Source: Flavobacteriales bacterium
Lineage (GTDB): Bacteria > Bacteroidota > Bacteroidia > Flavobacteriales > CAJXXR01
Length of the DNA: 64,000 nt
Reading direction: 5' to 3'
Assembly (NCBI GenBank): GCA_025210805.1
Contig: JAOAQX010000005.1
Span: forward strand, 124,001 to 188,000
The position numbers and the translations under genes are program-made. Below the pieces are notes generated by a model. It did no database searches and had not been told where the DNA came from. It saw nothing but the letters and a program-made list of their open reading frames with translations. The first letter of the stretch is position 1. Each line of letters opens with the position of its first letter. Shown one piece after another: positions 25,131-52,980 of this stretch.

Positions 25131-26078
25131 ATGAAGAGATTATTCTTGTTTAGTTTTGTGATTTTGAGCTGTTCGTCTATGTTTGCGCAACAAGATGCCC
25201 AGTTAACACAAAACATGTTTAACAAATTTGTTTTTAACCCAGCTTACGCTGGAGCAACTGGTAATATGAATGTCAGTTTGCTTCACCGTTCTCAATGGGT
25301 AGGTTTTGAAGGAGCGCCAAACACGCAGGTACTTTCGTTTGAAATGCCAGTACACGCCTTATCAGGAGGAATTGGAGCCACAATTATCAACGACGTAACA
25401 GGTGGAGGACTTGCTTACCGACAATTTAATGCGAGCTATGCTTTTAAGGCTGATTTAAGCCAAGATGCACACTTGTCTTTAGGTTTGAATGCAGGTCTGT
25501 ATAATATCGCATTTGATTATAGCGAATGGAAGACACCAAGTGGCGGATCGGGATTTGAGGATAATAAAATCCCAGATCAAGATGCTAGTGCGATTATTCC
25601 AGATATCGGTATTGGATTGGCTCTTACCTATCGCAATTACCGTATAGGTTTATCTTCAACTCACTTTGCAGAGTTTGAAGCCGAGCTACCATCAGGGAAT
25701 AATAGTGTTGCCTTTAATACAAAACGTCATTACTACGTTTTAGCAGAAGCAAACTATGAATTAAACAGAAGTTGGCAAATCTACCCTTCCTTTTTCTTAA
25801 AAACGGATCAGGTACAAACACAAATAGATTTTGCAGCCAATTTTATGTATGAAAATAAAATAACGGCAGGTATGGCTTATAGAGTAGATGATGCATTAGC
25901 ATTCATGTTTTCTTATAAACTACCACAAGGATTACAGTTTGGTTATTCTTATGACTTAACTATTTCTCAACTGAGTAGCTACCAAGCAGGCTCACATGAG
26001 GTCTTTATCCGTTATAGTAAGGCAATTGATGCACCGAGAAAAGGGAAATTCCGTTATAGAAATAACAGATTCCTTTAG
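25131..26078 (+). CDS. porP: Type IX secretion membrane protein PorP/SprF family
   Basis: Outer-membrane beta-barrel of 315 residues. A signal peptide (about 1-20, ending FAQQ) is followed by the family opening DAQLTQNMFNKFVFNPAYAGA and many amphipathic strands. A SPRF-type C-terminus follows (LPQGLQFGYSYDLTISQLSSYQAGSHEVFIRY). PorP/SprF proteins assist export of specific type IX substrates or surface adhesins. It is the first gene before gldK, the order porP-K-L-M-N known from Porphyromonas gingivalis, and it carries the likely operon promoter. Confidence 0.92.
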   Translation: MKRLFLFSFVILSCSSMFAQQDAQLTQNMFNKFVFNPAYAGATGNMNVSLLHRSQWVGFEGAPNTQVLSFEMPVHALSGGIGATIINDVTGGGLAYRQFNASYAFKADLSQDAHLSLGLNAGLYNIAFDYSEWKTPSGGSGFEDNKIPDQDASAIIPDIGIGLALTYRNYRIGLSSTHFAEFEAELPSGNNSVAFNTKRHYYVLAEANYELNRSWQIYPSFFLKTDQVQTQIDFAANFMYENKITAGMAYRVDDALAFMFSYKLPQGLQFGYSYDLTISQLSSYQAGSHEVFIRYSKAIDAPRKGKFRYRNNRFL

Positions 26079-26120
26079 TAGATTAGTAAACACAACACAG
26101 AAGATATAATTTTCGATAGT

Positions 26121-27452
26121 ATGAAACGAATATTTTTTCTTGGATTAATAGGAGCAGGGATTTTAAGCTGCTCATCGCCGCAGACAGAACTAGTAGGATC
26201 TTCTGCAGGAATCAATCCAAATTATGAACAACCTTTAGGAATGACGAAAGTAGGTGGAGGATCCTTCACTACAGGACCTAATGATGATGATGTACCTTAT
26301 GCACAAACTATGCCAGTAAAAACGGTTACGATGCATAGTTTCTACATGGATCAAACTGAAATTACCAATTCTGAGTATCGCCAGTTTGTACATTGGGTTC
26401 GTGACTCCATCGTAAGAAAAGCACTTGCAGAAGCTGGTGTAGAAGGTTATGAGTTAGTTGAGGAAGATTCGGAAGGAGAACCTATCGATGAACCATTCTT
26501 GAATTGGGATGTTGAAATAGACTGGTCTTCAGATGATGAAGCATTTGTAGATGCCTTGAAAGAGCTTTCTTATGACCCAGATCAAACAGTTACAGGAAAT
26601 CAAAATGCTGGTTTAGATGTTAGAAATTGGACTTATGAATATAAGTATATCAACAATAAAGCATTAGGAAATCCGTTAAACAGATATAATAGAGAAGACG
26701 GAACATACGGAAATAACTTCGAAAGTGCTCAATTATACAAAACGGCAAAAGCACCTGTTTATCCAGATACAACAGTTTGGTTAAAAGATTTTGCTTATGC
26801 TTATACATTCAATGAGCCTATCTTTTCAAACTATTTCTCTCACCCAGGATATGACCAATACCCTGTTGTAGGAGTTTCTTGGGAACAAGCAAACGCATTC
26901 TGTGCTTGGAGAACAAATGTAAGACAAAGTCAAAAGTCTGGTATGGAGAAGACGTTTGATACGCCTTTCCGTTTGCCTACTGAAATGGAATGGGAATATG
27001 CTGCTAGAGGAAATAAAGCGAAAGCTGTTTACCCTTGGGGAACACCATATCCAGCAACAAGACAAGGATGTTATCTTGCTAACTTTAAGCCAAGAAGAGG
27101 TGAGTATGGGGTAGATCAGTATGTGTTTACTGCACCAGCTAATGCTTATCATCCAAATGGATTTGGTTTATTTAATATGAGTGGAAACGTTTCAGAATGG
27201 ACCGCTACACCATTTGAACAAACACAATACTCTTTCTATCATGACTTAAACCCTGATTACCGCTATAATGCAGAAAAAGGAGATAGTAAGAAATTGAAAA
27301 GAAAAGTTATCAAAGGTGGGTCTTGGAAAGATGTAGCTGCATTTATCCAAATTTCTGCAAGAGATTATCAGTACCAAAATGAAGCGAGTTCATTCATCGG
27401 ATTTAGATGTGTGAAAACTTTCGAAAATGTACGTTCTGACTACGAAAAATAG
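26121..27452 (+). CDS. gldK: Type IX secretion/gliding lipoprotein GldK (PorK)
   Basis: Outer-membrane lipoprotein of 443 residues that with GldN forms the periplasmic ring of type IX secretion. It has a lipoprotein signal (GILSC, C17) and a formylglycine-generating-enzyme-like fold: GGGSFTTGPNDDD, MDQTEITNSEYRQFVHWV, YPVVGVSWEQANAFCAWR, RLPTEMEWEYAARG, GNVSEW and GFRCVK. The catalytic cysteines of true formylglycine enzymes are not expected in GldK and it acts structurally. It is the second gene of the operon, 42 bp after porP and 33 bp before gldL. Confidence 0.95.
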   Translation: MKRIFFLGLIGAGILSCSSPQTELVGSSAGINPNYEQPLGMTKVGGGSFTTGPNDDDVPYAQTMPVKTVTMHSFYMDQTEITNSEYRQFVHWVRDSIVRKALAEAGVEGYELVEEDSEGEPIDEPFLNWDVEIDWSSDDEAFVDALKELSYDPDQTVTGNQNAGLDVRNWTYEYKYINNKALGNPLNRYNREDGTYGNNFESAQLYKTAKAPVYPDTTVWLKDFAYAYTFNEPIFSNYFSHPGYDQYPVVGVSWEQANAFCAWRTNVRQSQKSGMEKTFDTPFRLPTEMEWEYAARGNKAKAVYPWGTPYPATRQGCYLANFKPRRGEYGVDQYVFTAPANAYHPNGFGLFNMSGNVSEWTATPFEQTQYSFYHDLNPDYRYNAEKGDSKKLKRKVIKGGSWKDVAAFIQISARDYQYQNEASSFIGFRCVKTFENVRSDYEK

Positions 27453-27485
27453 TAATAACAAAAACAAAAAAAACACAACCTAGTT

Positions 27486-28139
27486 ATGGGATTCTTACAA
27501 AGTAAAAAAGGAAAAAACTTTATGGCTAAGCTCTATGGTATTGGAGCAGCTGTAGTAATTTTGGGAGCACTATTTAAAATTCAGCACTGGCCTTATGCAA
27601 ATGCAATGCTTATAGCTGGTTTGGGTACGGAAGCGATTATCTTTTTTGTATCTGCTTTTGAAAAACCACCAAAAGAATATGATTGGTCTTTAGTATATCC
27701 TGAATTAGCAGGAATGGAAGTTGAGGACGATCCAAAAGATGGTCTTACAGCTGCTCAAAGACTTGATAATATGTTAGAAAAGGCAAAAGTAGATCAAGAT
27801 TTGGTATCTTCATTAGGAGATGGTCTTAGAAAAGTAAGCGATGCTGCCAATGGACTTGGAGAAGCTGTTTCTATTGCCGAATCTACTTCTAACTATTCTA
27901 CAGAAGTTGTGAAAGCTTCAAAGAGTTTAGAGGCTATTAATGCAATGTATGAGTCACAAATTGAGTCAAACAAGCAATATACAGAGTCTACTCAAATGCT
28001 TGCTAGTAATATGCAAGCGGCTATGAAAACATCAGCAGACATGCAAAACGAATTAAACAGCTTAACGAAGAACCTGAGTTCTTTAAACTCTGTTTATGGA
28101 AACATGCTTACTGCGATGAATTTTAATAACAAAAACTAA
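27486..28139 (+). CDS. gldL: Type IX secretion motor protein GldL (PorL)
   Basis: Inner-membrane stator-like subunit of the proton-driven motor that powers type IX secretion and gliding. The 217-residue protein has two membrane helices near its N-terminus (about 13-30 and 38-57). The motor glutamate is at position 49 in AGLGTEAIIFF, and a lysine (K31) lies at the end of helix 1, matching the residues reported as essential in Flavobacterium johnsoniae GldL. The rest is a cytoplasmic helical tail. It assembles as a ring with GldM, encoded 10 bp downstream. Confidence 0.96.
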   Translation: MGFLQSKKGKNFMAKLYGIGAAVVILGALFKIQHWPYANAMLIAGLGTEAIIFFVSAFEKPPKEYDWSLVYPELAGMEVEDDPKDGLTAAQRLDNMLEKAKVDQDLVSSLGDGLRKVSDAANGLGEAVSIAESTSNYSTEVVKASKSLEAINAMYESQIESNKQYTESTQMLASNMQAAMKTSADMQNELNSLTKNLSSLNSVYGNMLTAMNFNNKN

Positions 28140-28149
28140 TTGATTTACT

Positions 28150-29733
28150 ATGGCGAGTGGTAAATTATCCCCAAGGCAAAAAATGATCAACATGATGTAT
28201 CTCGTGTTGACAGCTCTTCTTGCCTTGAATGTATCTAAAGACATATTACATGCTTTCGCAAAAGTAGAAGATGGTTTTGCAACCACTGTTTCTGCTATGG
28301 AGAGTAATAACACGGAATTGTATAAATCATTTGCGGCTTTGGCCGAAAAAAAGGTTTCTGCTAAGGAAAACCAAGTAATTGCTGAAGAAGTTCGATCAAG
28401 AGCAAAGCAATTAAATGATCATATACAAACATTGCATAAAGACATTACTAATTTGAACGGAGAACCAGAACTAGATGAAGATCTAGGAATGAAACTCCCA
28501 GAAAAAATGGATGATCTTGATAAAGTTGCAAATTTATTATTGAAAAAACCTAAAAGAGCGGAGAAATTACGTATTGAAATAGAAAAATACCGTGATTATT
28601 TATTGGGTTTAAGTGAAGTAACAAAAAATCCAAGTATTCGTGCAGATATCGAAAGAGCTTTTAATACTAAAGATAGAAAAGTAGGTGCTGTTAATTTAAA
28701 ATGGGAGGATGCAACTTTTGGGCATTATCCGTTAATTGCGATTCTTACATTTCTTAGAAAAATCCAAGCGGATGTAGTAAAAGTTGAATCGGATGTAGTA
28801 GGAAGTTTATATTCTTCAGTGGGGAAATCGGCTTTTAGTTTTGACGAATTAGAAGCGATGATTGTACCTAAATCTTCATCACTGCTTGCAGGAGATAAAT
28901 ACGAAGCGGATGTCTTTGTAACAGCTTTTGATTCTAAACAAAAACCTAAAGTAGAATTTACGAGAAAATTTAGTAATGGAAAACCAAACTTCGATGGATC
29001 TTCTGATCTACCTGTAGAGAATGGAAAAGGAAAACTTTCTTTTGTTGCTTCAGGTGTGGGAGAACACAAAATTGGTGCAAAAATTACGATTGTTAAAACA
29101 GATGGAACTTCTCAAAGCTGGGAAACGCAAAATGCATATAACGTTGCCTCTCCTACAGCAGTAGTTTCACCTACAAAAATGAATGTATTCTACCAAGGGG
29201 TACCAAACCCAATTGAAGTTTCAGTTCCTGGAGTAGATTCTAGAAACGTTAGAATTTCAGTGAGTGGAGCGGCTCAAAAGAATGCAGGAAAAGGAAAATA
29301 CGATATTACGGTAGCAAAAGGAAATAGCAAAAATGTAAATATTTCTGTTACAGCTAACGGGAAAAGAATTGGGAAACCAAAAGAATTCCGTGTAAAACGT
29401 ATTCCGAATCCAGTTTCAAGTGTTGCAGGATTGTCAGAAGGTAGAATTGCAAAAGGATTACTTCTTTCAACAAAAGGAGTAAGAGCTAAGCTAAGAGATT
29501 TCCCATTTGATATTAACTTTAGAGTAAAATCATATACTCTTAGAATCAAAGAGGGAGAATATATCAAAGAGGTTTCGGTAAAAGGAGATTTATTCACTCC
29601 AGCTATCAAAGAAAAACTTAGAAGAGTAAAACCAGGATCAGATGTTTCATTTGTAAGAATTCGTGCAAAAGCGAAAGCATACCCAAGTATTCCTACAAAA
29701 GTATGTCCTCCAGTAGTATTAACAGTTAACTAA
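28150..29733 (+). CDS. gldM: Type IX secretion motor/periplasmic shaft protein GldM (PorM)
   Basis: Inner-membrane protein of 527 residues whose dimer passes through the GldL ring and reaches across the periplasm to the GldK/N ring. The N-terminus MASGKLSPRQKMINMMYLVL holds R9, the conserved arginine that interacts with the GldL glutamate. One membrane helix (about 13-33) is followed by a helical domain and then three immunoglobulin-like domains (from about residue 225 to the end, with AVVSPTKMNVFYQGVPNP and VPGVDSRNVRISVSGA). The length is that of the family. Confidence 0.96.
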   Translation: MASGKLSPRQKMINMMYLVLTALLALNVSKDILHAFAKVEDGFATTVSAMESNNTELYKSFAALAEKKVSAKENQVIAEEVRSRAKQLNDHIQTLHKDITNLNGEPELDEDLGMKLPEKMDDLDKVANLLLKKPKRAEKLRIEIEKYRDYLLGLSEVTKNPSIRADIERAFNTKDRKVGAVNLKWEDATFGHYPLIAILTFLRKIQADVVKVESDVVGSLYSSVGKSAFSFDELEAMIVPKSSSLLAGDKYEADVFVTAFDSKQKPKVEFTRKFSNGKPNFDGSSDLPVENGKGKLSFVASGVGEHKIGAKITIVKTDGTSQSWETQNAYNVASPTAVVSPTKMNVFYQGVPNPIEVSVPGVDSRNVRISVSGAAQKNAGKGKYDITVAKGNSKNVNISVTANGKRIGKPKEFRVKRIPNPVSSVAGLSEGRIAKGLLLSTKGVRAKLRDFPFDINFRVKSYTLRIKEGEYIKEVSVKGDLFTPAIKEKLRRVKPGSDVSFVRIRAKAKAYPSIPTKVCPPVVLTVN

Positions 29734-29740
29734 TCAAAGG

Positions 29741-30604
29741 ATGAAAAGATTATTAACCATATTAACCCTAGGTTTGGCAATGCTAAATGCAGATGCTCAA
29801 ACAACAAAGAAATCAAAGTTTAGTAATAAAATAGGGGCAGATAATCAACACGGAACTTTTATTTTAAGAGATTTCGACTATGACAGTCGTACACTTCCTT
29901 ATGTAGCTGTTGCTGAGGAAGACGTATGGTGGCATAAACAATATGTTTCTTCAATTAATTTGAAGTTACCAACAAATCAACCCTTGTTTTATCCTGTGGA
30001 GCCTACCGCATATCGTAAAAACCTTTTCTCGGTTTTGATGGGAGCTGTAGAGAGTGGAAAAGTACAAGCTTATGATGATGCTTTATTCGAAATCAAAATG
30101 CCACTGGCAAAGATTAAAGAAAAAATGGAGCGTGTTGAAACTATCGAAGATGAAGATTTTGATACAGGTGAAGTGGTGATTCGTAAACAAACGATTCGTG
30201 TACTTCCTAATCAAATTATCGAAATCTTGATTAGAGAAGAGCGTTTCTTCGACAAAAAACGTTCGGTAATGGATTCACGTATTCTTGGAATCTGTCCAGT
30301 TGCTTTGGTAGAGAATCCAGAGACTGCATCTTATGATAAAACACAATTGTTTTGGTTGTATTATCCAGAAGTACGTCAGTTATTGGCTAACTCAAATGTA
30401 TGGAATCCATATAACAACTTTGAGCGTATGACAATGGATGAGTTCTTCCATAAAAGAATGTTTTCTTCAGTAATCCAGTATGAGTCTAATATGCAAAATA
30501 GATATATCTACGATTACAACAAGAAGAAAGTTGATCAACTTCTTGAAGCAGAAAGAATCAAAAATGAAATTAGAAACTTCGAACATGACCTTTGGAGTTA
30601 CTAG
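29741..30604 (+). CDS. gldN: Type IX secretion ring protein GldN (PorN)
   Basis: Periplasmic protein of 287 residues with a signal peptide ending LNADAQ. It has the family features FILRDFDYDSRTLPYVAVAEEDVWWHK, TIRVLPNQIIEILIREERFFDKKRSVMDSRILGICPVA, LFWLYYPEVRQLLA and the C-terminal NRYIYDYNKKKVDQLLEAERIKNEI. It forms the outer-membrane-associated ring with GldK. It is the last gene of the operon, 7 bp after gldM, followed by a terminator. Confidence 0.96.
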   Translation: MKRLLTILTLGLAMLNADAQTTKKSKFSNKIGADNQHGTFILRDFDYDSRTLPYVAVAEEDVWWHKQYVSSINLKLPTNQPLFYPVEPTAYRKNLFSVLMGAVESGKVQAYDDALFEIKMPLAKIKEKMERVETIEDEDFDTGEVVIRKQTIRVLPNQIIEILIREERFFDKKRSVMDSRILGICPVALVENPETASYDKTQLFWLYYPEVRQLLANSNVWNPYNNFERMTMDEFFHKRMFSSVIQYESNMQNRYIYDYNKKKVDQLLEAERIKNEIRNFEHDLWSY

Positions 30605-34256: not shown

Positions 34257-36257
34257 ATGCTACTCAATCGCACTTTACTAGTTGTTTTTGTACTATTAGG
34301 AATGTCTAGTAATCTATTTTCTCAGGTGGGCATAGGGACAAATAGTCCACACGCTTCTTCTGTTTTAGAAGTATCTTCTTCTAACAAAGGTTTTTTACCA
34401 CCCAGACTAACCGAAGCAGAAAGACAGGCTATTACTGATCCTGCAACTGGATTACTTATTTACAACAAAAATATCAATTGTTTAGAGGTCTTTACAGGAT
34501 CCACAGGAAATAGTGATAGTGATTGGAAAAGTCTTTGCTCTTCTGGTGCAGGAACGCCAGGAACAGGAGGAGGAATTGTGACAGATTCACCAGATAGAGA
34601 AAATGGTAGTGTAAGTATTTCTACCCAGACTTGTTTTGATATTGCAGAATCTAATGATTTTGCAAATGGTTGTGGGTCCTTAAGTTCAAGAACAGCAAGC
34701 AAAGCAGATTTTGCCCAGCAAACCACTTACGAACAAACATTAACCATTTCAACAAATACAGCTGTGTCTAATTTAGTTTTGGCTGTTTATAACTCTAATG
34801 GAAATCCTATTACAGCTGTTTCTCAACCTGTTTTGACCAGTCTAGATGCAACAGGAGCAAACTCTTCTACAACGGCTACTATTACCTATAATCAAAACCT
34901 TAATACAGATGCCAATGGATTAAGCACTTCTGATGCTTATACAGCAACCATTTTTTTGACTTACGAAGAGAATGGAAAAACAAAGCGTTCTGAGTTAAAC
35001 ATTACAGTACAGGATTGTGAGTGTTCAAAAGATTTTGCTAGCGATCAAGCAAATTATACTTCTGTTTTTCTAAATAATAAAGGGGAAGTATTTACTGCTG
35101 GGAGAAATGTATCTACTTTAGCTGCAGGTAGAGATATTAGTACGAATGCTTATTTATCTGATTTTGAGAAAATTGACATAAGAGATGAGTTTAATAATAA
35201 AGTATTTATTAGCAATATAGCCACAGGAGCTAATCATTCTATAGCAGTATCCAATAAAGGGAAATTATATGGATTTGGAAGTAATGGAAGTTATAAACTC
35301 GGTCTAGGTGATTTAGCAAATTACCCTATAAAATTATGTGGAATTCCACTAAATGAAAGAGTTGTGGATATTTCTCTCGCACCCTATCACTCCTATGTTC
35401 TTACTCATAACAACAAAATATATAGAACTGGTGGAGTCGGTACATCATCTACAGGAGAAATGAGTAAAGGTGTAAATGTTGGAATCGGTATGTTTAAATA
35501 TTTAGATTTAAGTGACACGGTCTATACTAATCAAAATGGAGGAGTTACTCCAATTCCAATTGATGTGGAAATAGCCGAAAGAAAGTCGTTTTTTATAGAT
35601 TCTAATGGTAAACTTTGGACTACCGGAGAATATAGAAATGGTGCAACAGGTTTAGGATCAATATCAAGTTCTGGAGGTATTAATAATTTCAAAAAGATAA
35701 TGACAGGTTTTCCAGTAAATTATCAAGTTGCTAAAATTGATGCTTCTCGTGCTTTGACCTTGGTAGTATTAACGGATGGAACAATTTATATATCTGGTGA
35801 GGTTGATAGAGGTATACAAAATCATAGTTCTTCTAATTCTTATGTATCTACTTTTGAACCCTTGATTATTGATGGTGATATGGTAGGGAATACTTCTGGA
35901 ATAAAGCTAGTAAGAATTTTAGGTGGTGGAAATTCACATTCAGGAATAATGATTCTTACCAATGATAACAAACTATATGTAAGAGGATATTTTACAGGAT
36001 ATCAATCAGGATATGCAGCACAACAGTTAAATGATTTTAAAGAAGTTGATCTTTCTATATTAAGTGGACGAATTATAAAAACCATTAAAATAACAGCTAG
36101 AACAACTAGTCTTATTACAACAGATGGGAAAATATATACAGCTGGAAGAAATTTGTATTACAATCTACTTAATACAAATACAAATACCAATCTCTATAAT
36201 TACACCTACAAAGAAGCTAATCTTCCCAATGCTTTGAACAACATATGGGTTAATTAA
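34257..36257 (+). CDS. Surface protein with RCC1-like propeller
   Basis: Exported protein of 666 residues. The ATG at 34257 gives a signal peptide ending NLFSQ, whereas the open frame from 34212 would put 15 polar residues before it. The mature N-terminus VGIGTNSPHASSVLEVSS and NKGFLPPRLTEAERQAI is a module common in Bacteroidota surface and tail-fibre-like proteins. It is shared with the protein at 37807-40596. A linker and two Ig-like segments follow. From about residue 280, seven blades with the V/L-Y-x-x-G pattern appear (VFTAGRNVS, LYGFGSNGSYKLGLGD, LWTTGEYRNGATGLGS, IYISGEVD, LYVRGYFTG, IYTAGRN), an RCC1-type propeller. No type IX sorting tail is seen at the end (LPNALNNIWVN). Confidence 0.8.
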   Translation: MLLNRTLLVVFVLLGMSSNLFSQVGIGTNSPHASSVLEVSSSNKGFLPPRLTEAERQAITDPATGLLIYNKNINCLEVFTGSTGNSDSDWKSLCSSGAGTPGTGGGIVTDSPDRENGSVSISTQTCFDIAESNDFANGCGSLSSRTASKADFAQQTTYEQTLTISTNTAVSNLVLAVYNSNGNPITAVSQPVLTSLDATGANSSTTATITYNQNLNTDANGLSTSDAYTATIFLTYEENGKTKRSELNITVQDCECSKDFASDQANYTSVFLNNKGEVFTAGRNVSTLAAGRDISTNAYLSDFEKIDIRDEFNNKVFISNIATGANHSIAVSNKGKLYGFGSNGSYKLGLGDLANYPIKLCGIPLNERVVDISLAPYHSYVLTHNNKIYRTGGVGTSSTGEMSKGVNVGIGMFKYLDLSDTVYTNQNGGVTPIPIDVEIAERKSFFIDSNGKLWTTGEYRNGATGLGSISSSGGINNFKKIMTGFPVNYQVAKIDASRALTLVVLTDGTIYISGEVDRGIQNHSSSNSYVSTFEPLIIDGDMVGNTSGIKLVRILGGGNSHSGIMILTNDNKLYVRGYFTGYQSGYAAQQLNDFKEVDLSILSGRIIKTIKITARTTSLITTDGKIYTAGRNLYYNLLNTNTNTNLYNYTYKEANLPNALNNIWVN

Positions 36258-36548: not shown

Positions 36549-37442
36549 ATGACAGGATTTGAAGAAAAATATATCAATCCTTTTACAGACTTTGGATTTA
36601 AGAAATTGTTTGGTGAAGAACCCAACAAGGATTTGTTGTTGGATTTTCTGAATGAACTTTTAAAAGAGAAAGAAGGAAATATAAAGTCCATAACGTATTT
36701 AAAAAATGAACATGTGGGACGTCTTGAATCTGATAGACGAGCTATTTTTGATATTTATTGTGAAAATGAAAAAGGGGAGAAATTTATTGTAGAGATTCAA
36801 AAGACAAAACAGAATTTCTTTAAGGATAGAACGGTCTATTATTCCACTTTTCCCATCCAAGAACAAGCCAAGAAATTGACTTGGGATTTTAGTCTAAAAG
36901 GAGTTTATACTATAGCCATTTTAGATTTTATCTTTGATGAGAATAAGAACAACCCAGATAAATATCGCTATGATGTAATGCTCACGGATATAGAAACCAA
37001 GGAGGTGTTTTATGATAAGCTGACTTTTATCTATCTTGAAATGCCCAAGTTCAATAAAACAATTGATGAATTAGAAACGCAATTTGAGAAATGGCTCTAT
37101 GTTTTGAGGAATTTACCGAATCTACAAAAACGCCCTGATAAACTACAAGAAAAAGTTTTTGCTCATCTTTTTGAAGTGGCAGAGGTGGCGAAATTGTCAA
37201 AAAAGGAACTGATGTATTATGAAGATAGCATGAAAGTCTATCGAGATTTAGAAAATTCTTTGGAAACTAAATACATGGAAGGTAAATTGGAGGGTAAGGC
37301 CGAAGGAATTGAACAAGGAATCGAGCAGAAGAATATTGATATTGTTTTAAACTCATTTAAATTAGGTCTTGATATATCAATCATTCAAAAACTAACGGGT
37401 TTGACCGAAGAAGAAATAAAAAGAATTCTAGAAGAACAATAG
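36549..37442 (+). CDS. Rpn family recombination-promoting nuclease / PD-(D/E)XK transposase-like protein
   Basis: Protein of 297 residues of the Rpn (PDDEXK_2) family, DNA endonucleases that promote RecA-independent recombination and are often spread horizontally. It starts INPFTDFGFKKLFGEEPNKDLLLDFLN, the family hallmark. The nuclease core is IFDIYCENEKGEKFIVEIQK, with D and ExQ forming the metal site, followed by RTVYYSTFPI. The C-terminus has a repetitive GKLEGKAEGIEQGIEQKN linker and an HTH-like LDISIIQKLTGLTEEEIKRIL, as in long Rpn proteins. It is flanked by family B repeats. Confidence 0.88.
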   Translation: MTGFEEKYINPFTDFGFKKLFGEEPNKDLLLDFLNELLKEKEGNIKSITYLKNEHVGRLESDRRAIFDIYCENEKGEKFIVEIQKTKQNFFKDRTVYYSTFPIQEQAKKLTWDFSLKGVYTIAILDFIFDENKNNPDKYRYDVMLTDIETKEVFYDKLTFIYLEMPKFNKTIDELETQFEKWLYVLRNLPNLQKRPDKLQEKVFAHLFEVAEVAKLSKKELMYYEDSMKVYRDLENSLETKYMEGKLEGKAEGIEQGIEQKNIDIVLNSFKLGLDISIIQKLTGLTEEEIKRILEEQ

Positions 37443-37806: not shown

Positions 37807-40596
37807 TTATTGATTGATTTTGTACCAAATATTATTATAAAATGCGTAGGTATAGAACTGAAAGGCTACAGGAATAGAATTAGTAGTGGCTCCCCCCTCA
37901 AAGGTGATTCCAGCACCAGACGTTGTAATAGTCACGTTGTTTCCACCTGCAATTTTCTTTATTGTAACAGTCTGTCCGTTTTGTGGAGTTTCAAGTAGGG
38001 TAATGTTTAATGCAGCTGTTGCATCAGCTAGAACTATTTCATCACTTGCGGTCATAGTATAATCAGCTGTTTTGCTAGTAATAGCTTTTACATTCCCAGA
38101 AAATGCTTTGGAAACATTTCCATTTGCGTCAATGGCTAATGTATTTCCTGTTCCAGTTAGATTTCTAATTCTAATATTATCATTATTGGCATCGATATCT
38201 AAAGGTTTTGAAGGAGTTGGTATATTTATACCTGTATTACCATTTTCTAGAACAATGATTCTATTGTTTAGATTGATTTGATTGTTTCCTGCAATGTCAG
38301 GTAGAGTAAGATTTCTTCCAATAATAATATTGTTGTCTCCTGTAAGTGCTTGGTTTAAACCTTCTCCAATAAAAATATTATTATCCCCTTCGTTTTCTTG
38401 CCCAGCACTTTGACCAATAGCAATTACATCATTACCAGTATTATTTTGTGCAGCAAAATATCCTATAGAATTTAAGTATTCACCTTTGTTCTTTTCACCT
38501 GAATGTCCACCAATGGCTATTACATCTCTTGCTGTATTACTATCTGCTGCCAGTTCTCCGAAGGCATTAAGTCTATCACCCGTGTTTCCTCTAGCAGTTT
38601 GATAACCAATTGTTGAAGATTTTACCCCTTGATTACCTTGTCCTGCAAAATATCCCAAAGCAATCAACTGGTGGGCTGTGTTATTCAAAGCTGATGATGC
38701 TCCAATGGCAACAACATTATTCCCTCTATTGTTTTTTGCAGTACTATTACCGAGAGCTGAGACACCAGAACCAATGTTGTTTTGTAGAGCTTCGTATCCT
38801 AGTCCATTTACATTTGTACCTGTATTATTTTGTCCTGCTACTCGCCCAATTAGGTTTGCCATATCACCTGTATTTTCTTTACCTGCTTCCAAACCGATGG
38901 ATGTTACAAAGGATCCTGTATTGTTCTGTCCTGCAAGATTTCCAATGAAATTGCTGTGATTACCTCCATTATTGTTTTCACCAGCTTTAGATCCAAAGGC
39001 ATTTACATAGGAAGAATTTTTGTTATTGGAACCAGCTTCCATCCCAAAAGCATTAAGGTGAGAGCTTCTATTGCTATCGGCAGCATACCTACCAAAGGCA
39101 TTTACATTCTCTCCTGTATTATCCATTGCAGAAAAAGATCCCATAGCATTTAGATAATTTCCTTCATTATTAGAAGCTACAGAATATCCTAAAACATTGA
39201 TATAGTCACCACTATTATTGCCTGCCGAGTTATGACCAATTGTGGTTACGAATTCACCAATATTTGTGTCTCCAGCTTGTCCACCTATAGCATTTAGGTA
39301 GCGTCCAGTATTTCGGTTTGCTGTATAATTACCAATAGCAACCACATCATCCGCTCTATTTACTGATCCTACATTAGCTCCTAATAACACTGTTCGATTT
39401 CCCGTATTCGCTACACCTGCACTTATTCCCATGGCATGGACATATTCGCCTGTATTGTTTTGAAGAGCTCTATATCCTATTCCAACATTATACCCTGTAT
39501 TCGCATATTCACCTGACTGATTTCCCATAAATATATTGTGGGTACCACTATTATTACTTCCTGCTAGCTGTCCTAATGCGATTAAATTTGAACCTCTATT
39601 AGAGTCAGCAGTACTGTTACCAATAGCAATCACTTCATTTTGATTATTCACTAAAGCAGAATTCGTTCCCAATGCAACTACATTATTTCCATTATTATTT
39701 CTAGCAGCAGAAACACCTATTGCAACTATTTTTTCACCAGTTTGGTGCATCCCAGCATATCTACCTAATAAATTTGCATCATCTCCGCTATTGTATTTTC
39801 CTGTCTGATACCCTATCGCTGTTAAATAATTAGCTGAATTATTAATTTTACCAGCTTGCCTACCAATAGCGATTATTCGATCACCAGTATTTGAATCAGC
39901 TGCCTCTATTCCAATTGCGTTAATATAGTCTCCAGTATTGTTTCCAGCGGCTTTGTTTCCAAATGCATTGATATAGTTTCCACTATTGTTTGCAGCTGAA
40001 TAAGCACCCAAGGCATTTACATTATGTCCATTACTATTTTGAACTGCTTGATATCCAAATCCATTTATATGAGTTTGACTGTTGTTTTGACCAGCTTGAT
40101 ATCCTAAGAAATTAACATTATTTTGATCATTTTCTTTTCCAGCTTGATACCCAATATTGATTTGATTACTTCCATCCGAGTTGTTTCCAGCTTCAAAACC
40201 AATGTTTACTTTGTTGTTTCCTGAAGTACCAGGTGTGGTTGTATGTGTATAATAGTTAGGTTGATTTACAGAGCTTCCATCCACATAATTCAAAAATTTT
40301 GTTGAATTACCTGTAGTTATTGGAACCCATTTGCTTCCATCCCAGAAATAGAAGCCTTCTGCTACATCATTTATTGTTTGGGTATTATATATTAATAAAC
40401 TTTTCATTGGAGATGCAACGGGTGCAGCTGTTGTTGTATTTGTTAAAGCAATTCTAGGAATTAAAATACCTTTATCATTGGCAGAAATATCTAATCTCGC
40501 AGATGAGTTTGGTGAAGTTGTTCCTATACCCACTTGAGAAAATGAGTGATACGAATAACTAATCAGTAGTATGGTCAGTAATGCAATTTTTTTCAT
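37807..40596 (-). CDS. Large surface protein with about 40 repeats of 16 residues (beta-solenoid/beta-roll)
   Basis: Exported protein of 929 residues. The ATG at 40596 gives a signal peptide ending HSFSQ; the frame is open 14 codons further up. The N-terminal module VGIGTTSPNSSARLDIS and NDKGILIPRIALT is shared with the protein at 34257. Residues about 127-770 consist of roughly 40 units of 16 residues with pattern N-[YVI]-[VIL]-[NTI]-[AF]-[IFL]-G-x-x-[AS]-[AG]-x-x-N-[TN]-G, for example YINAIGIEAADSNTGD and FVTTIGHNSAGNNSGD. Regular hydrophobic/Gly/Asn positions predict a beta-solenoid or YadA-head-like roll. The end (TADYTMTASDEIVLADATAA, GGNNVTITTSGAGITF, NNIWYKINQ) is like phage tail-fibre C-termini. 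There is no type IX sorting tail. Confidence 0.85.
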   Translation of the reverse strand: MKKIALLTILLISYSYHSFSQVGIGTTSPNSSARLDISANDKGILIPRIALTNTTTAAPVASPMKSLLIYNTQTINDVAEGFYFWDGSKWVPITTGNSTKFLNYVDGSSVNQPNYYTHTTTPGTSGNNKVNIGFEAGNNSDGSNQINIGYQAGKENDQNNVNFLGYQAGQNNSQTHINGFGYQAVQNSNGHNVNALGAYSAANNSGNYINAFGNKAAGNNTGDYINAIGIEAADSNTGDRIIAIGRQAGKINNSANYLTAIGYQTGKYNSGDDANLLGRYAGMHQTGEKIVAIGVSAARNNNGNNVVALGTNSALVNNQNEVIAIGNSTADSNRGSNLIALGQLAGSNNSGTHNIFMGNQSGEYANTGYNVGIGYRALQNNTGEYVHAMGISAGVANTGNRTVLLGANVGSVNRADDVVAIGNYTANRNTGRYLNAIGGQAGDTNIGEFVTTIGHNSAGNNSGDYINVLGYSVASNNEGNYLNAMGSFSAMDNTGENVNAFGRYAADSNRSSHLNAFGMEAGSNNKNSSYVNAFGSKAGENNNGGNHSNFIGNLAGQNNTGSFVTSIGLEAGKENTGDMANLIGRVAGQNNTGTNVNGLGYEALQNNIGSGVSALGNSTAKNNRGNNVVAIGASSALNNTAHQLIALGYFAGQGNQGVKSSTIGYQTARGNTGDRLNAFGELAADSNTARDVIAIGGHSGEKNKGEYLNSIGYFAAQNNTGNDVIAIGQSAGQENEGDNNIFIGEGLNQALTGDNNIIIGRNLTLPDIAGNNQINLNNRIIVLENGNTGINIPTPSKPLDIDANNDNIRIRNLTGTGNTLAIDANGNVSKAFSGNVKAITSKTADYTMTASDEIVLADATAALNITLLETPQNGQTVTIKKIAGGNNVTITTSGAGITFEGGATTNSIPVAFQFYTYAFYNNIWYKINQ
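38290..40220 (-). repeat. Coding array of about 40 units of 48 bp
   Basis: DNA for the 16-residue units, nearly all 48 bp in period, with a few units of 17 residues. Units are strongly diverged from each other at DNA level while the periodic Gly, Ala, Asn and hydrophobic positions are kept. Antisense ORFs in this interval are by-products of the repetitive composition. Confidence 0.85.
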
Positions 40597-40730
40597 GATA
40601 ACATTTGATTTGTTTAAGCGCCAAAAATATTGCATCATGTCTTTGTTTATATATACATAAATTAGGAATGGCTGATTTAAGTATTCGAAAAGTCAAATTA
40701 AGATACAAACAAGTATAGAGTTATTAATCA

Positions 40731-52524: not shown

Positions 52525-52980
52525 CTGTCAGTTCGAGTGATTTCTTTGGAGAGCAACGGAAGAAAATTTGTATCGAGAACTTTTTTGATTATCGTATGCC
52601 ATTCTCGATACAATTTTTGATTCCATTGTATTCCATCAAAAACCACTCGAATTGACAAGGCTTACTATGTCAGTTCGAGTGAATTTTCTGTAGGGCAACG
52701 GAAGAAAATTTGTATCAATTCTGTCAGTTCGAGTGAATTTTCTGTAGGGCAACGGAAGGAAATTTATATCGAGAACTTTTTTGATTATCGTATGCCATTC
52801 TCGATACAATTTTTGATTCCATTGCATTTCATCAAAAACCACTCGAATTGACAAGGCTTACAATTTGTATCGAGAACTTTTTTGATTATCGTATGCTATT
52901 CTCGATACAATTTTTGATTCCATTGTATTCTATCAAAAACCACTCGAATTGACAAGGCTTACAATATGTATCGAGAACAT
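52525..52980. repeat. Cluster of family A nested-hairpin repeats
   Basis: Two complete copies (52525-52657 and 52722-52853), one 5' half (52668-52721) and one 3' half (52861-52954) lie almost head to tail. A complete copy begins TGTCAGTTCGAGTG, continues GGCAACGGAAG or AGCAACGGAAG and TTTGTATCGAGAAC, turns through TTTTTTGATTATCGTATG, and returns as ATTCTCGATACAATTTTTG and CACTCGAATTGACA. Both the outer ends and the inner TGTATCGAGAA/TTCTCGATACA pair, so each copy can fold into one long hairpin of about 130 bases. There are no credible genes. Confidence 0.85.

Follow-up and report, generated by a model that had tools for sequence, protein, structure and literature searches.

The closest relatives of the repeats considered here lie in viral fibre proteins, to judge from sequence comparison, the best of them in the flavobacterial Tenacibaculum phage pT24 (BAV39263.1, annotated as "chlorovirus glyco repeat domain-containing" and with relatives in phages PTm1 and PTm5), a phage-encoded protein of about 3,200 aa whose 9.7-kb gene carries over 40 NxxIGxxAGxNNTG units at a spacing of 16 residues. 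The heads of YadA and other trimeric autotransporter adhesins are likewise made of a short G/A/N-rich beta-roll unit, 14 residues long, and form an adhesin-like surface rod held by a C-terminal anchor, and the type A substrates of the T9SS join a Sec/Q-rule start to a C-terminal sorting tail (TIGR04183). We analysed a window of 64,000 nucleotides from a Flavobacteriales bacterium (contig JAOAQX010000005.1) that contains a gene with units of the same 16-residue kind as those of pT24. Its product has a signal peptide and an N-terminal module which, as far as the phage protein was read, only the bacterial protein has, and a Pfam scan at E ≤ 10 gave neither the membrane anchor nor the head family (YadA_head, PF05658) of YadA.

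The minus-strand open reading frame extends over 37807–40638 and encodes 943 aa counted from its first ATG; judged from the sequence, the ATG at 40596, which gives 929 aa and from which the frame reads MKKIALLTILLISYSYHSFS and then Q, is the natural start of the gene (residue numbers given here, such as Q35, 144–756 and 659–943, are those of the 943-residue frame). All parts of the protein lie on the minus strand. The putative Sec signal peptide (40537–40596), read heuristically from an MKK start, a hydrophobic core and the Q after the cleavage site, is the kind of export signal that T9SS substrates carry; the predicted cleavage before Q follows the Q-rule for Bacteroidetes signal peptides (PMC5837995), and this Q is invariant across 28 paralogous modules of the genome. 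It is followed by a 74-residue module (40315–40536; QVGIGT ... KGxLxPR ... LLIYNT ... W) that in this protein begins at Q35 (QVGIGTTSP...LLIYNT...GFYFWDGSKW) and matches the A1 module profile at E = 3.6e-25, as the earlier note had read the N-terminus. A T/N/S/G-rich linker, delimited from the translation and of low pLDDT (40210–40314), leads to 38 units of a 16-residue beta-solenoid repeat (38371–40209), which are delimited by autocorrelation, the unit table, the AlphaFold2 model of the last units and the viral relatives. Behind these the translation gives two degraded units and a solenoid end (38239–38370; NNIFIG..., NNIIIGRNLTLPD...NNQINL), then a second GIGT-like connector (38089–38238; NTGINIPTPSKPLDI...NLTGTGNTLAIDANGNVSK) that is common to two paralogs encoded in the same genome (L017 and L018) and similar in L096, and finally a C-terminal beta domain that resembles the end domain of a phage virion protein (37810–38088). 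No lipoprotein cysteine was seen in the sequence, and the Pfam scan of the whole protein gave no family at E ≤ 1 and only a chance match (UL40) at E ≤ 10.

The period of the array is unambiguous: at lags of 16, 32 and 48 the self-identity of the protein is 0.31, 0.28 and 0.27, and none of 500 shuffles exceeded 0.145. The 38 clear units occupy residues 144–756, 35 of them exactly 16 residues long and three of 17, and the two degraded units come after them, so the estimate in the earlier note of about 40 repeats and roughly 640 residues was right; its description of them as near-exact was not, since two units are on average 33% identical in protein (maximum 69%) and 49% identical in DNA. Only G4 is invariant (38/38); N11 (34/38), G13 (28/38), A7 (24/38) and a hydrophobic residue at position 3 are mostly kept. 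Where two units have the identical residue its codon is also identical in 48.1% of cases, and the codon use of the array itself predicts 46.3%; synonymous sites are therefore saturated, and adjacent units resemble each other no more than do units far apart. The codons are thus randomised, and the repeat array is therefore old and anciently diverged. The divergence of the units and the codon comparison rule out a recent expansion, and the strong DNA divergence is, as had been claimed from the letters alone, the mark of long selection on the fold. A search of 40 relatives found no ortholog at E ≤ 1e-30, scans of genome contigs and viral contigs with the whole protein or with its repeats also found none, and a search with the repeats in 396 genomes of the order returned a single match (L015, 35% identity).

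The stretch of residues 659–943 was modelled with AlphaFold2 as a monomer, with other array segments supplied as alignment rows. The prediction is a regular solenoid with one strand per 16 residues, in which 10-residue blocks have pLDDT values of 78–93 over the first 100 residues; the mean pLDDT is 64.6 and pTM 0.48, and the C-terminal domain, at values below 60, is poorly resolved. The model thus has the regular coil per repeat of a parallel beta-solenoid. The earlier note's alternative of a beta-solenoid or a YadA-head-like roll holds for the predicted solenoid, and the identity with YadA heads is not borne out by the Pfam scan described above. A separate AlphaFold2 model of the module has blocks of pLDDT 85–90 over module residues 41–70, with three short strands. 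Against a viral fold library the repeat model matched, each at a probability of 1.00, proteins of Tenacibaculum phage pT24 (E = 5e-4, the best), of Bodo saltans virus (an adhesin, with an rmsd of 1.8 over 107 columns) and of phage PTm5. Foldseek gave no match below 0.001 in the PDB for either AlphaFold2 model, and VIA-align against solved structures gave generic beta-helices only (Z 6.4–8.3, residues 1–170), an arrangement that the tool itself rates as common; YadA-type heads are absent from the matches listed by the two tools, which excludes nothing. Sequence searches of solved structures with the whole protein, the module or the C-terminal domain returned nothing above chance.

In the phage collection 11 records match the repeats, with the lowest E-value for pT24 (9e-29). 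A single blastp run without the low-complexity filter gave 36% identity, 117 bits and E = 3e-30 for pT24 and 37% and 95 bits for a Halorubrum virus, whereas the best bacterial match (L015) reached 69 bits, all others stayed below 43, and a shuffled query gave at most 27 bits. In the other Bacteroidota and phages examined the repeat is mostly a 17-residue version. The chlorovirus glycoprotein repeat has no Pfam match in the protein, although its best relative, that of pT24, bears this annotation. The C-terminal domain is shared with the paralogs L017 and L018, whose middle parts differ, and it matches a 137-aa protein in a viral contig (L233; 32% identity, E = 5e-7) and Halorubrum tailed virus 29 (E = 4e-3), in agreement with the earlier suggestion of a C-terminus like that of a phage tail fibre. 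Repeats, module and C-terminal domain all have relatives among phage virion proteins.

The module is what lifts the protein above a variant of known fibre proteins: it is common and unnamed and was never found together with a T9SS tail. No Pfam family fits it, it has no solved relative, and a literature search found no paper for QVGIGT and none on such fibres. A profile search of the genome gave 41 matches in about 38 frames, and in all 33 of the proteins examined the module adjoins the signal peptide; one locus (L019, G000:C19:51374-54543) has two frames with two copies each. The C-terminal parts of these proteins are mutually unrelated (RCC1 propellers, FG-GAP, fibronectin III, FISUMP and calcium-type repeats), and the cargo of 62 named module proteins elsewhere includes FISUMP, Peptidase_S74, Lcl_C, fibrinogen-like, collagen, YadA_head and BppL_N domains, which are kinds found in fibres and heads. 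The module is present in 90 of 395 sampled Bacteroidota genomes and in hundreds of places in viral contigs, and a consensus-like query retrieves 206 isolated-phage records, mostly of cyanophages. It also occurs on MAG contigs labelled Alphaproteobacteria, Daviesbacteria, Streptomyces, Bifidobacterium or Bdellovibrio (L072, L092, L128, L130 and L139), which are probably binning errors. Its position differs between the two settings: it lies directly after a signal peptide in 62/79 named genome loci and in 2/80 viral loci, and within 90 aa of the C-terminus in 68/77 viral proteins and 3/73 genome proteins. The fibre end is nevertheless not its sole position in phages, since in cyanophage Syn33 it lies near the N-terminus. 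By these sequence comparisons the module proteins are a large, unnamed family of exported Bacteroidota proteins that share their front module; this family, spread through the genome and the phylum, had escaped the earlier note.

In the same genome the T9SS tail model matches 90 times, and SprA is encoded once. The repeat protein has no NCBIfam match at E ≤ 1, so neither TIGR04183 nor another tail, as the earlier note had held, and by any recognised signal of its own in the sequence it is not a T9SS client; NCBIfam tails are likewise absent from the 33 module proteins of this genome and from the 62 named ones elsewhere. With a profile made from 40 of the genome's own tails, none of 125 module genes proved to have one. 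In a matched control, the remaining secreted proteins encoded at the named loci, the figure is 21/61, or 11/51 once the immediate upstream neighbours of module genes are omitted (P = 4e-12 and 5e-7, respectively, both optimistic because the loci are related). In the named loci 12/85 module genes have a T9SS-tailed gene as their immediate upstream neighbour on the same strand (8 within 150 bases), and the comparable figures are 1/80 downstream of module genes and 6/386 for other genes; two further P-values from these counts, 4e-6 and 0.0025, are again optimistic, as clusters and related species make the counts non-independent. In different Bacteroidota a tailed secreted gene ends 22–57 bases before a same-strand module gene (L066:3871-4911, L068:3906-4913, L081:2899-4869, L083:826-1842, L094:1882-3822, L098:2953-4896, L131 and L134:3052-4878), and the pair is conserved. 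Because the tail is excluded from the module genes and is enriched directly upstream of them, these data suggest a cooperation of some module proteins with a tailed partner. The pairing concerns a minority of module genes, 2/27 in this genome, and the repeat protein gene itself is without a T9SS-tailed tandem neighbour.

The genes around the repeat protein gene encode a hybrid histidine kinase, an RCC1-propeller module protein, an Rpn-type nuclease, an FAD oxidase, an ABC-F protein, a TatD nuclease and an asparaginase, and this chromosomal setting also includes gldKLMN, secDF and ExbB. The T9SS core operon lies at 25131–30604 (gldK, gldL at 27486 by position, gldM and gldN), and the gene at 25131 is, by position and sequence only, likely of PorP/SprF type. 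The RCC1-like propeller protein (34257–36254, plus strand) is secreted and carries RCC1 repeats in Pfam and a QVGIGT module (A1 match at G000:C5:158323), and the genome encodes a similar protein in L027. An Rpn family (PDDEXK_2) recombination-promoting nuclease or putative transposase (36549–37442) separates the gene of this propeller protein from the repeat protein gene. Elsewhere in the window, at 52668–52978, two tandem arrays adjoin (a 54-bp unit in 1.9 copies and a 101-bp unit in 2.2 copies, with 94–95% matches) in a stretch that has no convincing gene. No phage structural genes were seen among the neighbours of the repeat protein gene, and GC and GC3 are like those of the neighbours (GC3 0.20, compared with 0.18–0.33).

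Taken together, we judge it fairly probable that the gene encodes a bacterial surface fibre protein, rod-shaped and exported by Sec, that is built from modules also used in phage tail fibres; an origin as a prophage in place is ruled out by the housekeeping and T9SS neighbours. It is very improbable that the gene is left over from the tail-fibre gene of a prophage: all three parts do have viral relatives, but a signal peptide stands directly before the module, as in 62/79 relatives, the frame of 929 codons is intact, and the two paralogs share both ends, in addition to the neighbours and the GC3 value given above. The earlier note had named, as evidence that would speak against a surface protein, homologs that show a phage structural gene located in prophages; the parts are indeed homologous to phage fibre proteins, but the gene is chromosomal and has a signal peptide. 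Still harder to believe is a trimeric autotransporter adhesin of the YadA type, which the likeness of the NxxIGxxAGxNNTG unit to the YadA head repeat and a weak match of the distant bacterial relative L015 to YadA_head (E = 9e-4) might suggest; the unit has 16 residues and not 14, and the anchor that such a protein needs is refuted by the Pfam scan, as the note, which had seen none, anticipated.

Two other possibilities concern the outer membrane. Retention in the periplasm after Sec export, without any outer-membrane route, is unlikely but is the strongest of the alternatives: the protein has no T9SS tail, autotransporter anchor or lipoprotein cysteine, and the periplasm is where a Sec substrate that lacks a second signal is expected to stay by default. 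However, the cargo domains of the module family (FISUMP, S74, fibrinogen-like and collagen) are typical of heads that are secreted or exposed at the surface, the family is partly paired with T9SS-tailed genes, and there is no obvious use in the periplasm for a rod of 40 coils that is homologous to viral fibres. It is rather improbable that the protein is a T9SS substrate whose sorting signal goes unrecognised, possibly in the N-terminal module or the C-terminal beta domain. SprA is found in 90/90 module-bearing genomes of the sample of 395 Bacteroidota (the two genome lists were matched by eye), and about 7 kb separate the gene from the gldKLMN operon, but lineage confounds the former, as SprA occurs in 303/395 genomes, including 213/305 without the module, and SprA-less lineages tend to lack both; moreover, the T9SS signals known so far sit at the C-terminus, a part in which the module proteins are mutually unrelated.

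If the protein is such an exported surface fibre, signal peptidase I would expose Q35, and the QVGIGT module would then be the docking or trimerisation end of a fibre that may be a trimer. At a rise of 4.8 angstrom per coil, about 40 coils would make a rod of about 18–19 nm, at whose tip the C-terminal domain could be held off the cell and serve in adhesion or receptor binding; we infer exposure at the surface and, probably, a role as an adhesin. Some members of the module family, at least, may get across the outer membrane because a T9SS-tailed partner from a neighbouring gene carries or holds them. A wider and quite doubtful proposal is that the module is an N-terminal surface-assembly signal common to phage fibres and Bacteroidota, which would dock tail-less, phage-fibre-like appendages to a T9SS-tailed partner that takes them to the surface or holds them there; if true, it would be a second, tail-independent way of surface display in Bacteroidota. 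QVGIGT proteins are many in flavobacteria and their relatives and are unnamed in Pfam and NCBIfam, and if they are exported phage-fibre-like appendages they would make up a large hidden class of surface proteins.

Compared with the known systems, the protein shares with T9SS type A substrates the genome and the Sec/Q-rule start, and such substrates are sometimes encoded directly upstream of module genes, but they have the sorting tail that is found in none of the 125 module genes. Its secreted relatives in Bacteroidota, L015 and L099 (Peptidase_S74), have related repeats, and L099 also has the N-terminal module, but their units are of 17 residues (NTAIGYxALxxNTTG) and their C-terminus is an S74 chaperone, whereas the units here have 16 residues and another C-terminal domain follows. 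The protein of Leptolyngbya phage Lbo-JY46 (XAI97394.1), like the bacterial one, unites solenoid-type repeats, a solenoid end (NNIIIGTNISLPNGRSNSINL, very similar to NNIIIGRNLTLPDIAGNNQINL of the bacterial protein) and the QVGIGT module in one chain. It has no signal peptide, however, and its module is C-terminal, after the repeats, whereas the bacterial protein has the module first; this reversed order is a concrete case of fibre parts common to viruses and bacteria.
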